The position numbers and the translations under genes were made by a program. The notes beneath the pieces are model-generated. The model saw only the letters and a list, made by a program, of their open reading frames with translations. It was not told where the DNA came from and ran no database searches. From positions 3,242,868 to 3,306,867 of the forward strand of contig NZ_KI421509.1 in assembly GCF_000473225.1 (NCBI RefSeq): a stretch of 64,000 bases of DNA. The letters run 5' to 3'. Shown piece by piece: positions 24,664-30,880 of the stretch. How positions within the stretch are numbered: position 1 is the stretch's first letter; each line of letters begins with the position of its first letter. This DNA is from Sedimentitalea nanhaiensis DSM 24252 (GTDB lineage Bacteria; Pseudomonadota; Alphaproteobacteria; Rhodobacterales; Rhodobacteraceae).

Positions 24664-24694
24664 TGTGATCACGTGGGAAAAACGCGTGATCACA
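24664..24694. promoter_or_regulatory. Tandem GTGATCAC operator upstream of sucC
   Basis: TGTGATCACG (24664-24673) and CGTGATCACA (24685-24694) each contain the perfect 8-bp palindrome GTGATCAC and are mirror images of each other. Their centres are exactly 21 bp apart (two helical turns). The nearer one is about 114 bp upstream of the sucC start. The same pair with the same spacing precedes sdhC (30848-30880). Confidence 0.7.
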
Positions 24695-24754
24695 AATATT
24701 GCCGGAGGGGTCAGGCTTGCCCGCCGGGACCTTGTGTTTCGAATCGCCAGGGCA

Positions 24755-24790
24755 CAAAAAAACGCCGCCCGGTCCAGGGCGGCGTTCCTT
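24755..24790 (-). terminator. Intrinsic terminator of mdh
   Basis: A perfect 10-bp inverted repeat (AACGCCGCCC 24761-24770 and GGGCGGCGTT 24777-24786, 6-nt loop) has AAAAAAA to its left, read as a U tract on the minus strand. It separates mdh from the suc operon. Confidence 0.9.
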
Positions 24791-24810
24791 TAGGGCAACG
24801 TTGGAACCGA

Positions 24811-25773
24811 TCAGGCCAGCGAGCTGTCGATGCCCTTGCAGGCTTCGACCAGGCCTTTGACCGCGGCCACCGAACTGTCGAACATCGCCTGTTCGTCCTT
24901 GGTCATCTTGATGTCGATGACCCGCTCGATGCCACCGGCCCCGATCACGGTCGGCACACCCACATACATGCCTTTCAGCCCCAGCGCACCGTCGACATAG
25001 GCAGCACAGGGCAGAACCCGCTTTTGGTCTTTCAGATAGGCTTCGGCCATTTCGATGGCGCTGGTGGCGGGCGCATAGAACGCCGAACCGGTCTTGAGCA
25101 GGCCGACGATTTCAGCACCGCCGTCACGGGTGCGCTGAACGATCCCGTCCAGCTTTTCCTGGGTGGTCCAGCCCATCTTGATCAGGTCGGGCAGCGGGAT
25201 ACCGGCAACGGTCGAATAGCGGACCAGCGGCACCATGGTGTCGCCGTGGCCACCCAGCACAAAGGCAGTGACGTCTTTCATCGACACATTGAATTCGCTG
25301 GCCAGGAAATGGCGGAACCGTGCACTGTCCAGTACGCCCGCCATGCCACAGACTTTTTCATGCGGCAGGCCCGAAAATTCGCGCAGGGCCCAGACCATCG
25401 CGTCCAGCGGATTGGTGATGCAGATCACAAACGCGTTCGGCGCATGATCACGGATGCCTTCGCCAACCGATTTCATGACCTTCAGGTTGATGCCCAGCAG
25501 GTCGTCCCGGCTCATCCCAGGCTTGCGTGGCACGCCGGCGGTGACGATGCAAACGTCCGCGCCGGCGATATCGGCATAGGACTGGGTGCCGCTCATGGTG
25601 GCATCGAAGCCTTCGGAGGGGCCCGATTCCGCGATGTCCAGCGCCTTGCCTTCGGGGGTGCCCTCGGCAATGTCGAACAGAACGACGTCGCCCAGTTCCT
25701 TCAGGGCTGCGAGGTGGGCGAGCGTGCCGCCGATCTGACCTGCGCCGATCAGCGCAATCTTGGGTCTGGCCAT
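24811..25773 (-). CDS. mdh: Malate dehydrogenase
   Basis: A 320-aa LDH-like malate dehydrogenase. NAD motif [13 protein letters not shown], substrate loop [15 protein letters not shown] with the catalytic-site arginines, and active-site His in [10 protein letters not shown]. It oxidises malate to oxaloacetate in the TCA cycle. ATG 25773 ([12 protein letters not shown]) is the family start; GGAGACAATACC precedes it. A strong terminator isolates it from sucC. Confidence 0.96.
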
Positions 25774-26181
25774 TGGTATTGTCTCCGATCCGATGAAAAT
25801 TGCGCGTTGCCTAGTGCCTAACGCTGCTCCGCGCAAGCGTTCTGCGCTGCGGCATAGGCGAGCGCGGAACCGGCGCGGGCATACGGATTTCAGAGAAAGT
25901 ATATATATATTAGAGTTCTAGGTGGTCCAGAATGTCCAGGCGGAAGGATTGGAATTTTGCGGTTTCGTCCCCGATCGGCGTATCCAGCAAGCGGTTGACC
26001 AAGCGCTGCGGCACCGGAACGGCTCTGATAGGGGCTCGATTCTGGTGTCGGTACCGCCAAAACAGATCTGGCTTTGGCGGTCGGATTTTGCCGGAAACCT
26101 ATCCGTGCCGATTCTGGTGGCCCGTCGGCGGGTGGCGACAGGCCAGGTCCGTCGGTGCCCGGCCTATGTCACCGCGCAGGC
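25774..26181. other. 408-bp intergenic region upstream of mdh
   Basis: It contains an AT-rich run (TATATATATATTAGAG, near 25900-25915) in otherwise GC-rich DNA and an 8-bp hairpin (CCGCCAAA 26054-26061 against TTTGGCGG 26073-26080). Open frames on the plus strand from 25922 and 25932 show no recognisable protein and overlap the next gene, so I do not call a gene. The mdh promoter must lie in the first part. Confidence 0.5.
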
Positions 26182-26499
26182 TCAGGCGTCGTTGCCCTTA
26201 GGCGGCAGCGCCTCGGCCAATTGCTCGAACGACTGACCCGACGCCACCAGACAGGTCAAACCGTTCGGAGTGGTGACCGTGATCGTCCAGGACCCGGTAT
26301 CATCGGAGGCAAACACCTCGACCACCGTGCCCTGAGCGCCCAACCCGATGCTTTGGCGAGTTTCGCCGTATCCCGTGGCCAGGCGTTCGACCACCGTATC
26401 GCGCGGGGCGCAGTTGCGAGATTGCTGGGCCGCGACCTGCTGCGCCGCCAGAACCATCACACCCAGCCCGATCGTCATGTTCAAAATTGTCTTCTTCAT
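26182..26499 (-). CDS. Small exported hypothetical protein
   Basis: A 105-aa protein with a clear signal peptide (MKKTILNMTIGLGVMVLAAQQVAA) and a short mature domain containing two cysteines (NCAPRDTV, TCLVASG) that could form a disulfide. The mature part has an SH3-like feel (TGYGETRQSIGLGAQGTVVE, GSWTITVT). No named family recognised. It is preceded by AAAGGGTAAAACCC. Monocistronic, divergent from mcl2. Confidence 0.75.
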   Translation of the reverse strand: MKKTILNMTIGLGVMVLAAQQVAAQQSRNCAPRDTVVERLATGYGETRQSIGLGAQGTVVEVFASDDTGSWTITVTTPNGLTCLVASGQSFEQLAEALPPKGNDA

Positions 26500-26810
26500 G
26501 GGTTTTACCCTTTCCCCTGAGGCCTGCCTGTCCGGTTAGGCCCGCCGGTTGCCCGGTGCGCCGGGCCGGCACGCCCAGTGTTGGTCCGCTGTCCGCCCCG
26601 CTGCCCGATGGATCGGTGGCCTCACCGAAACGGTCTGTCGTGATCGAAGCTGACGCCAAAACACTGCCAAATGAGTGCTGAAAAGTGGTTAATGGCCCGT
26701 GCGGTGCGACGGGATCCGCGATCAAAATGCTGCGTCGCGGCGATTTGCGCTTGATCTTTTACATCAAAAATGCCCTCTTCCGCGCAACAAAATGACTTTT
26801 GGAGAGACTC
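26500..26810. other. 311-bp divergent intergenic region before mcl2
   Basis: It holds a 6-bp hairpin GCCCGG-TGCG-CCGGGC (26551-26566) and the inverted repeat TTGAT-N7-ATCAA (26751-26767). The last 60 bases are AT-richer, as expected for the mcl2 promoter, but no clear -35/-10 pair can be assigned. No gene seen. Confidence 0.45.
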
Positions 26811-29503: not shown

Positions 29504-29533
29504 GCGGTCACAATATCGATCACATCGCAATCA

Positions 29534-29556
29534 GCCCCGCACAAGCGGGGCCGAAT
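29534..29556 (+). terminator. Probable terminator after mch
   Basis: A 7-bp GC stem (GCCCCGC 29534-29540 and GCGGGGC 29545-29551) with a 4-nt loop ACAA, followed by a weak CGAATCTGTT tail. Stem is strong; the U tract is poor. Confidence 0.5.
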
Positions 29557-29606
29557 CTGTTATGCTCGCGGAATGGTGAGGGACACGCCATAAAGAGGGT
29601 GAAACT

Positions 29607-30053
29607 GTGACCGAACGCCATAAAGAATTGGACTATCTTCCCGACAACATTGAAATCATTGCCACCACCGATGCGCCGATGGCGCATTGGCTGCTGCGTG
29701 CCGCGCTTTCGGCGACATTTCTGTTCCACGGGCTTGGCAAGCTGGGCGATCCTGCGGCCACGGCCCAGAATTTTGGCCTGTCGCCCGAGATTCTGACCGT
29801 CGCCGCCATGGTGGAACTGACCGCCCCGGTTGCGCTGTGTCTGGGCGGTCTGATGACCAGCCAGTTGGGCGATCTGATGACGCGCCTTGGCGGCCTGTGC
29901 GCCATTGCGGTGCTGATCGGTGCGATTTCCGTGGCACATTGGGGGCAATGGAGCTTTGCGCCAACCGCCACCCATCCGCTGGGTGGGATGGAGTTTCAGG
30001 TGACGCTGATTGCCATCGGCATGTACTTTGTTTTCAGAGGTAACAGCGTCTGA
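29607..30053 (+). CDS. DoxX family membrane protein
   Basis: A 148-aa protein with four hydrophobic segments. The DoxX-type pattern LLRAALSATFLFHGLGKLGDP is followed by ELTAPVALCLGGL and AHWGQWSFAP. GTG start preceded by AGAGGGTGAAACT. Function of this subfamily is not established. Monocistronic by appearance. Confidence 0.8.
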   Translation: MTERHKELDYLPDNIEIIATTDAPMAHWLLRAALSATFLFHGLGKLGDPAATAQNFGLSPEILTVAAMVELTAPVALCLGGLMTSQLGDLMTRLGGLCAIAVLIGAISVAHWGQWSFAPTATHPLGGMEFQVTLIAIGMYFVFRGNSV

Positions 30054-30137
30054 TCCGGCTTGCCGGTTCAGGGGAACTTTGGTGTGATCGCTGCGACATG
30101 GCAGGACAAGGTCAGCAAACCGGGCTACTGTTGGCCC

Positions 30138-30809
30138 ATGCGCCTGACTGTTGCATCTCTTCTCACGGTCCTTGGCGGGCCGGCAGTGTGCTGCGATCTG
30201 GCACTGGCGTTGGCGGTGGATGTGTCCGGATCGGTGGATGCACAGGAATATCGCATCCAGATGGACGGTCTGGCCGCGGCTTTGCGCGATGGGGTCATTT
30301 CCGAAGCTCTGGTGCGCGGTCGGGCCGAGGTCATGCTGGTGCAATGGACCGGGTCCAGCCGCCAGCAGATCACCGTCCCCTGGATGCGGATCGACAGCTT
30401 TGCCGCGCTGGATCAGTTCGCCGACCGGGTCGCCGCCGATAACCGGATCTGGCGCAACTATTCCACCGCCATCGGCGAGGCGCTGGCCTTTGTGATGCCC
30501 GCCTTTCAGCAGGTCGGCCATTGCAAACGTCACCTGATCGACATTTCCGGCGATGGGCTGTCCAACGAAGGCATTGCGCCGACTGCGCTGCATCCCGGCC
30601 TGAAACGAGCGGGAATCACTGTCAACGCCATCGCCATCGAGGCCAGCGAATCGGATCTCACCGCTTATTTCTACGAGAATGTGATTGTGGGCGAGGGGGC
30701 GTTTGTGGTCCCGGCCCGCAGCTTTGCCGAATATCCCGCGCGGATCCGCAAGAAACTGCTGCGCGAAGTCACACGTCAGACCGCCCGGGGCTTTGTACCG
30801 GGGCAATGA
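30138..30809 (+). CDS. DUF1194 VWA-domain secreted protein
   Basis: A 223-aa protein with a signal peptide (MRLTVASLLTVLGGPAVC) and a von Willebrand factor A fold. The metal-binding MIDAS motif DVSGSVD lies near residue 32, with the later Asp in DISGDGLSN. This matches DUF1194. The ATG at 30138 starts the signal peptide; the frame runs upstream to 30060 without a signal-like start. It likely binds protein partners in the periplasm (inference). Confidence 0.82.
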   Translation: MRLTVASLLTVLGGPAVCCDLALALAVDVSGSVDAQEYRIQMDGLAAALRDGVISEALVRGRAEVMLVQWTGSSRQQITVPWMRIDSFAALDQFADRVAADNRIWRNYSTAIGEALAFVMPAFQQVGHCKRHLIDISGDGLSNEGIAPTALHPGLKRAGITVNAIAIEASESDLTAYFYENVIVGEGAFVVPARSFAEYPARIRKKLLREVTRQTARGFVPGQ

Positions 30810-30847
30810 CGCGCCCGAATGCCGGGCAACATGATTCGCGCCCAATC

Positions 30848-30880
30848 CTGTGATCACAGGTTGCCGCGCTGTGATCACAG
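30848..30880. promoter_or_regulatory. Tandem CTGTGATCACAG operator upstream of sdhC
   Basis: CTGTGATCACAG occurs perfectly at 30848-30859 and 30869-30880; each is a 12-bp palindrome and the centres are exactly 21 bp apart. A degenerate third partial copy (TGTGATTTG) follows at 30885. The pair is about 120-150 bp upstream of sdhC, and matches the pair in front of sucC. Confidence 0.75.

Follow-up and report, generated by a model that had tools for sequence, protein, structure and literature searches.

Paired operators upstream of sucC and sdhC in Sedimentitalea nanhaiensis and their very probable regulator, the GntR-family protein AkgR

Introduction

In Rhodobacter sphaeroides, the predicted targets of the GntR regulator RSP_0981 are succinyl-CoA synthetase, succinate dehydrogenase, and 2-oxoglutarate dehydrogenase, according to the available portions of PMC4344238. 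The sites of the regulator AkgR include GTGATCAC, and AkgR is termed an activator, in the accessible part of PMC6365646, which also gives a GntR protein of the PS417_07240 type, from the deoxyribonate cluster of Pseudomonas simiae, as 32% identical to AkgR. AkgR appears only in the reference list within the portions of PMC11323563 at hand, and the corresponding portions of PMC5507952, PMC4419725, PMC8557541, PMC9142034, and PMC7471390 contain it as reference-list entries only. A literature search of open PMC papers found no paper on the paired spacing of such sites. Here we analyze a stretch of 64,000 nucleotides from Sedimentitalea nanhaiensis DSM 24252 (the window), in which GTGATCAC stands in tandem upstream of both sucC and sdhC, and we conclude with high confidence that the pairs are operators of AkgR, a GntR-family regulator of the FCD type that acts on the tricarboxylic acid (TCA) cycle.

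Results

Tandem Operators Precede sucC and sdhC

Direct reading of the sequence reveals two copies of GTGATCAC upstream of sucC, in the flanking contexts TATGTGATCACGTG and CGCGTGATCACAAA, and two upstream of sdhC, each within CTGTGATCACAG (Table 1). The centre-to-centre spacing is 21 bp in both pairs, as the initial annotation of this DNA had it, and the centre of the nearer operator is 113.5 bp away from the start of sucC (ATG at 24555, minus strand) and 123.5 bp away from that of sdhC (30998), in agreement with the 114–124 bp given there. Since each 8-mer is palindromic over its whole length, a pair comprises two whole operators; the earlier view of the palindromes as half-sites of one site gives way to one in which each GTGATCAC is a complete operator.

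Chance is not a serious explanation of the pairs. The window contains seven copies of GTGATCAC against 1.13 expected from dinucleotide shuffles, and TGATCA-N15-TGATCA is observed twice against an expectation of 0.00. As both of these matches are the known pairs, no second such pair was overlooked, and the earlier statement that the window holds no further intergenic pair stands. The three other GTGATCAC sites of the window (17034, 52748, and 55484) are unpaired and fall outside the set of sites that match TGTGATCACR. In the 4.95-Mb genome, the proposed scan for the pair returns the exact form only at sucC and sdhC, and a reversed-pattern control returned 0; the genome has 155 single GTGATCAC sites, and random placement of that many would give about 0.005 pairs for any given spacing. 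The shuffles, the genome count, and the control together remove the concern, raised with the original observation, that the pair might be equally common by chance.

A GntR-Family Protein Co-occurs with the Pair across the Family

The genome has 27 matches to PF00392 (GntR), some below cut-off, and only one of these, L031, has GTGATCAC within the 400 bp scanned upstream. L031 is a protein of 216 residues with PF00392 and PF07729 (FCD) above cut-off, encoded at C4:3337572-3338222, about 31 kb beyond the end of the window and about 64 kb from sdhC, and its start codon is directly preceded by TTGTGATCACAA. L031 is the genome's best candidate for the regulator that binds the pairs.

SdhC, SucC, and L031 were each searched for in 60 genomes of the family (Rhodobacteraceae) from 60 genera (G001–G060), and the 350 bp before each gene was scored by one script that allowed spacings of 19–23 bp and one mismatch per pair. 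With an orthologue of L031 defined by at least 65% identity, 49 genomes have one and 11 do not; G028 and G047 each have a second copy of SdhC, and these copies were set aside together with the sucC match of G021, a 52% paralogue. The sucC pair is found in 48 of 48 genomes with the orthologue (sucC was not found in G037) and in 2 of 10 without it, and the sdhC pair in 46 of 49 and 0 of 9, respectively (Fisher p = 2.3e-8 for sucC and 2.1e-8 for sdhC, values that ignore kinship among the genomes). Orthologue and both pairs are jointly absent from eight genomes (G004, G008, G014, G017, G029, G048, G054, and G059). One of the two orthologue-free genomes with a sucC pair, G033, encodes a homologue of 48% identity whose gene lies 7.7 kb from sucC and has a GTGATCAC site of its own, and this protein is for that reason probably an orthologue below the cut-off. 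Most of the sampled genomes with the regulator thus retain the pairs, and the absence of the pair from close relatives, which the initial annotation had named as the finding that would count against it, is not what these counts show.

Could a different GntR/FCD protein bind the pairs, with L031 having no part in it? One candidate is L036 (G000:C4:2549673-2552852), a paralogue of the same FCD kind that shares 40% identity with L031 and whose start is preceded, at about 42 bp, by a related palindrome, TTGATCAA; the second orthologue-free genome with a sucC pair, G019, whose closest homologue of L031 is only 36% identical, would also fit such a reading. The pair, however, tracks L031 orthologues through the 60 genomes, both leaders being without it in the eight orthologue-free genomes listed above, and G004, G014, and G054 have no pairs despite homologues of 30–42% identity. 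L036 itself has no GTGATCAC upstream and stands beside a gene that resembles those for polyamine-binding proteins by eye. We therefore reject L036 as the regulator on the co-occurrence of the pair with L031 orthologues, and regard any paralogue in this role as very improbable. By eye, L036 is divergent from the polyamine-binding-protein-like gene, and it may be a distinct GntR protein that controls polyamine uptake through a related operator.

Two regulators of other families were compared with the motif. A site of the CRP/FNR type is suggested by TGTGATCACA, which has TGTGA and TCACA in common with CRP half-sites. The half-sites of CRP and FNR are separated by a spacer of about 4–6 bases, and no spacer is present inside the palindrome in the 43 aligned leaders, all of which have a 21-bp pair; on motif shape, judged by eye, this reading is rejected, and we give it scarcely any credence. 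CceR, of the LacI family, recognizes the inverted repeat [AGT]GTT-N6-8-AAC (available portions of PMC4344238), which GTGATCAC, the one sequence compared, does not fit by eye, and CceR was likewise rejected.

The Candidate Regulator Gene Has Its Own Operator

Among the best 80 nearest L031 orthologues listed, all 80 have GTGATCAC within 120 bp upstream, and in 71 of them TTGAC begins 22 bp before the centre of this self-operator. In the family sample, the self-operator is present in 31 of 49 orthologues (counted without L154, which is at a contig edge), and 27 of these 31 have TTGA beginning 22 bp ahead of the operator centre. These elements place the operator between a predicted −35 and −10, the usual position for a repressor, which suggests autorepression of the regulator. 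That the self-operator is universal among the nearest orthologues but not in the family indicates that the conserved core consists of the suc and sdh sites, with self-control as an optional addition.

Of 50 orthologues (the 49 plus the G033 protein), 20 are encoded on the same contig as sucC or sdhC and no more than 20 kb away, a linkage that lends indirect support to orthology between L031 and RSP_0981; the best 80 nearest orthologue loci listed include no record from R. sphaeroides. Four residues of L031, N137, H141, H184, and D206, are invariant in the 30 of the 50 orthologues that were aligned and are common to the paralogue L036 too. They may form the site at which the FCD domain holds a ligand or a metal.

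Pair Geometry and the Predicted sdhC Promoter

The two-turn spacing proposed at the outset is strongly conserved. Among the genomes with a pair, own genome included, 91 of 98 leaders have 21 bp (43 of 47 for sdhC and 48 of 51 for sucC), and the other seven have 20 bp (six) or 19 bp (one), with none at the allowed 22 or 23. We considered whether only one site works, the second being a remnant and the 21 bp a matter of common descent and not of cooperation. A single sdhC site in G012, the self-operator being single in most leaders, and a spacing changed to 20 bp at only one promoter in G002 and G057 speak for this reading, which is rated slightly higher because the latter two genomes do not shift both promoters. 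Against it, most positions apart from the two palindromes differ between leaders of different genera, yet both palindromes are retained, at sdhC in 46 of the 47 orthologue genomes that have any site there and at sucC in 48 of 48; the spacing ranges over 19–21 bp only, and G009 and G055 have 20 bp at both promoters. A single working site is unlikely, although less so than a paralogue or a CRP/FNR-type site.

The flanks of the pairs in these leaders are also lopsided. Two bases out from the palindrome, A stands on 79 of the 102 outer flanks at sucC against 6 of the 102 inner ones, and on 57 of 94 against 12 of 94 at sdhC.

Downstream of the sdhC pair, the commonest 5-mer is GTGAC (42 of 47 leaders, that of G032 containing a run of N). 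In 33 of the 47, it lies 60–64 bp downstream of the centre of the proximal operator, compared with a mean of 0.26 and a maximum of 4 in 500 letter shuffles, and shared descent also contributes to these 33. In eight other leaders, it is found at 40, 51, 53, 54, 72, 72, 84, and 119 bp, and seven of these eight positions are near whole helical turns from the mode. In our genome, the element, 64 bp past the proximal centre, is part of a predicted −35 that is followed after a 16-bp spacer by a putative −10 (Table 1). If GTGAC is the −35 with that spacer, the dimers would be centred near −98 and −119 from the transcription start. The sucC leader offered no confident placement of a promoter.

Many sdhC leaders have a stretch like GCGCCAAAAAACCGCGCC downstream of the proximal operator and ahead of the predicted −35, in our genome at about 30904–30921 (the window region is listed as 30924–30960); it could be the site of a second regulator.

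Occurrence Elsewhere and Genomic Context

The looser TGATCA-N15-TGATCA has six matches in the genome, four of them besides the sucC and sdhC pairs. Of the 198 family genomes, our own among them, 192 contain it, a number that includes chance matches. TGTGATCACR occurs at eight places: the four pair operators, the self-operator of L031, and three others. Two of the latter lie inside reading frames that by eye are glycosyltransferase-like and ParA-like. The third, G000:C5:858-867, is a TGTGATCACG site close to where two converging frames end (L251), and is possibly a further AkgR site, or chance.

In a sample of the class, six of 385 genomes have the exact pair, four of them in the family, own included; the sample holds five family genomes, of which G055 is without it. 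The two outside the family are G344 and G399. In G344 (L252:992-1020), a 21-bp GTGATCAC pair lies between a frame that is TonB-receptor-like by eye and a GntR gene whose product is 30% identical to L031, the proximal centre being 125 bp from the chosen GntR start.

Within the window, a small open reading frame (ORF) at 23033–23359, between sucC and sucD, has no Pfam match and may not be a gene. A GC-rich inverted repeat with A/T runs at 24757–24793, terminator-like by eye, separates the malate dehydrogenase gene (24811–25836, minus strand) from the sucC leader. A DUF1194 gene (30060–30809) directly precedes the sdhC leader, and in one relative (L254) a DUF1194-like gene is ahead of sdhC, again by eye.

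Table 1. Operators, predicted promoter elements, and target genes in the window
Feature	Coordinates	Strand	Basis
sucC-proximal operator GTGATCAC	24665..24672	.	read directly, window count, conserved in relatives
sucC-distal operator GTGATCAC, 21 bp from proximal	24686..24693	.	read directly, window count, conserved in relatives
sdhC-distal operator (within CTGTGATCACAG)	30850..30857	.	read directly, window count, conserved in relatives
sdhC-proximal operator (within CTGTGATCACAG), 21 bp from distal	30871..30878	.	read directly, window count, conserved in relatives
predicted sdhC −35, GTGACA	30939..30944	+	GTGAC recurrence
predicted sdhC −10, TAAAAA	30961..30966	+	by eye, unscored
sucC, succinyl-CoA synthetase beta subunit	23362..24555	-	Pfam ATP-grasp_2, Ligase_CoA
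sucD, succinyl-CoA synthetase alpha subunit	22139..23020	-	Pfam CoA_binding, Ligase_CoA
sucA, 2-oxoglutarate dehydrogenase E1	18639..21599 (ORF limits)	-, as sucC	Pfam OxoGdeHyase_C, E1_dh
sdhC	30998..31384	+	Pfam Sdh_cyt
sdhD	31398..31769	+	Pfam Sdh_cyt
sdhA	31819..33624	+	Pfam FAD_binding_2, Succ_DH_flav_C
sdhB	34407..35309 (ORF limits)	+	Pfam Fer2_3

Discussion

The initial annotation had proposed a GntR-type regulator that couples the 2-oxoglutarate/succinyl-CoA and succinate steps and had left it unnamed. The coupling is upheld by the AkgR literature, as far as its available portions go, and by the co-occurrence of pair and L031 in the 60 genomes, and AkgR is the very probable name. In the mechanism that we propose, one dimer would bind each GTGATCAC palindrome, and the two dimers of a pair, set on one face of the helix at a distance of two turns, would bind cooperatively and probably activate the suc genes (sucC, sucD, and sucA) and the sdh genes jointly. 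At its own gene, a single operator between the −35 and −10 would probably let the regulator repress itself. More tentatively, at somewhat under even chances when all of its parts are taken together, AkgR would act throughout the family as an oriented dimer pair two turns apart, with A-tracts mainly on the outer side, on a fixed helical face, at distances that shift by whole turns, and with autorepression from a single operator.

Several observations weigh against these proposals. G019 has a sucC pair without an L031 orthologue; it is a draft genome of 210 contigs that is 91% complete, and this exception slightly lowered our confidence in the naming. G007 and G030 have the orthologue and no sdhC site, with sdhC within about 500 bp of a contig start, and G012 has the orthologue and a single sdhC site. 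The self-operator is missing in 18 of the 49 family orthologues, and GTGAC is absent from the interval 25–130 bp downstream in 6 of 47 sdhC leaders. The test for helical phasing of GTGAC is weak, with a Rayleigh p of about 0.013 for seven leaders and 0.07 for all eight, the element and the period having been chosen post hoc. The naming further depends on L031 being the orthologue of R. sphaeroides RSP_0981, which we infer, and on RSP_0981 being AkgR, as reported in a 2015 mBio paper, in which it reportedly activates TCA cycle genes directly.

If the full proposal is true, one protein would be activator or repressor purely through the geometry of its sites. The analysis gives the regulator its very probable name and shows that its link to the steps between 2-oxoglutarate and fumarate is preserved in most of the sampled genera of the family, together with a simple rule of geometry.

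Among solved structures, the closest to L031 by sequence is the GntR-type McbR (PDB 4p9f; E = 6.3e-21), a distant relative. The PS417_07240-type GntR protein resembles the present system in having the GTGATCAC palindrome upstream of its cluster, and differs from it in that the site lies −47 to −40 relative to the start of the regulator and in serving another pathway (accessible part of PMC6365646). The AkgR regulon of R. sphaeroides shares a GntR-family regulator, the predicted targets sucCD, 2-oxoglutarate dehydrogenase, and sdh, and GTGATCAC among its sites, so far as the portions of the sources at hand describe it, and our analysis finds four of its hallmarks here, namely a GntR-family protein, suc and sdh genes as putative targets, a GTGATCAC operator, and co-occurrence of regulator and site. 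The R. sphaeroides regulon belongs to another genus, and RSP_0981 is five locus tags from sdh (RSP_0974-6), whereas the regulator gene and sdhC are about 64 kb apart in S. nanhaiensis. Regulator and targets are already in print for R. sphaeroides, as a prediction in the available portions of PMC4344238; the paired, lopsided, and phased geometry of the operators may be a previously undescribed feature of this regulon.

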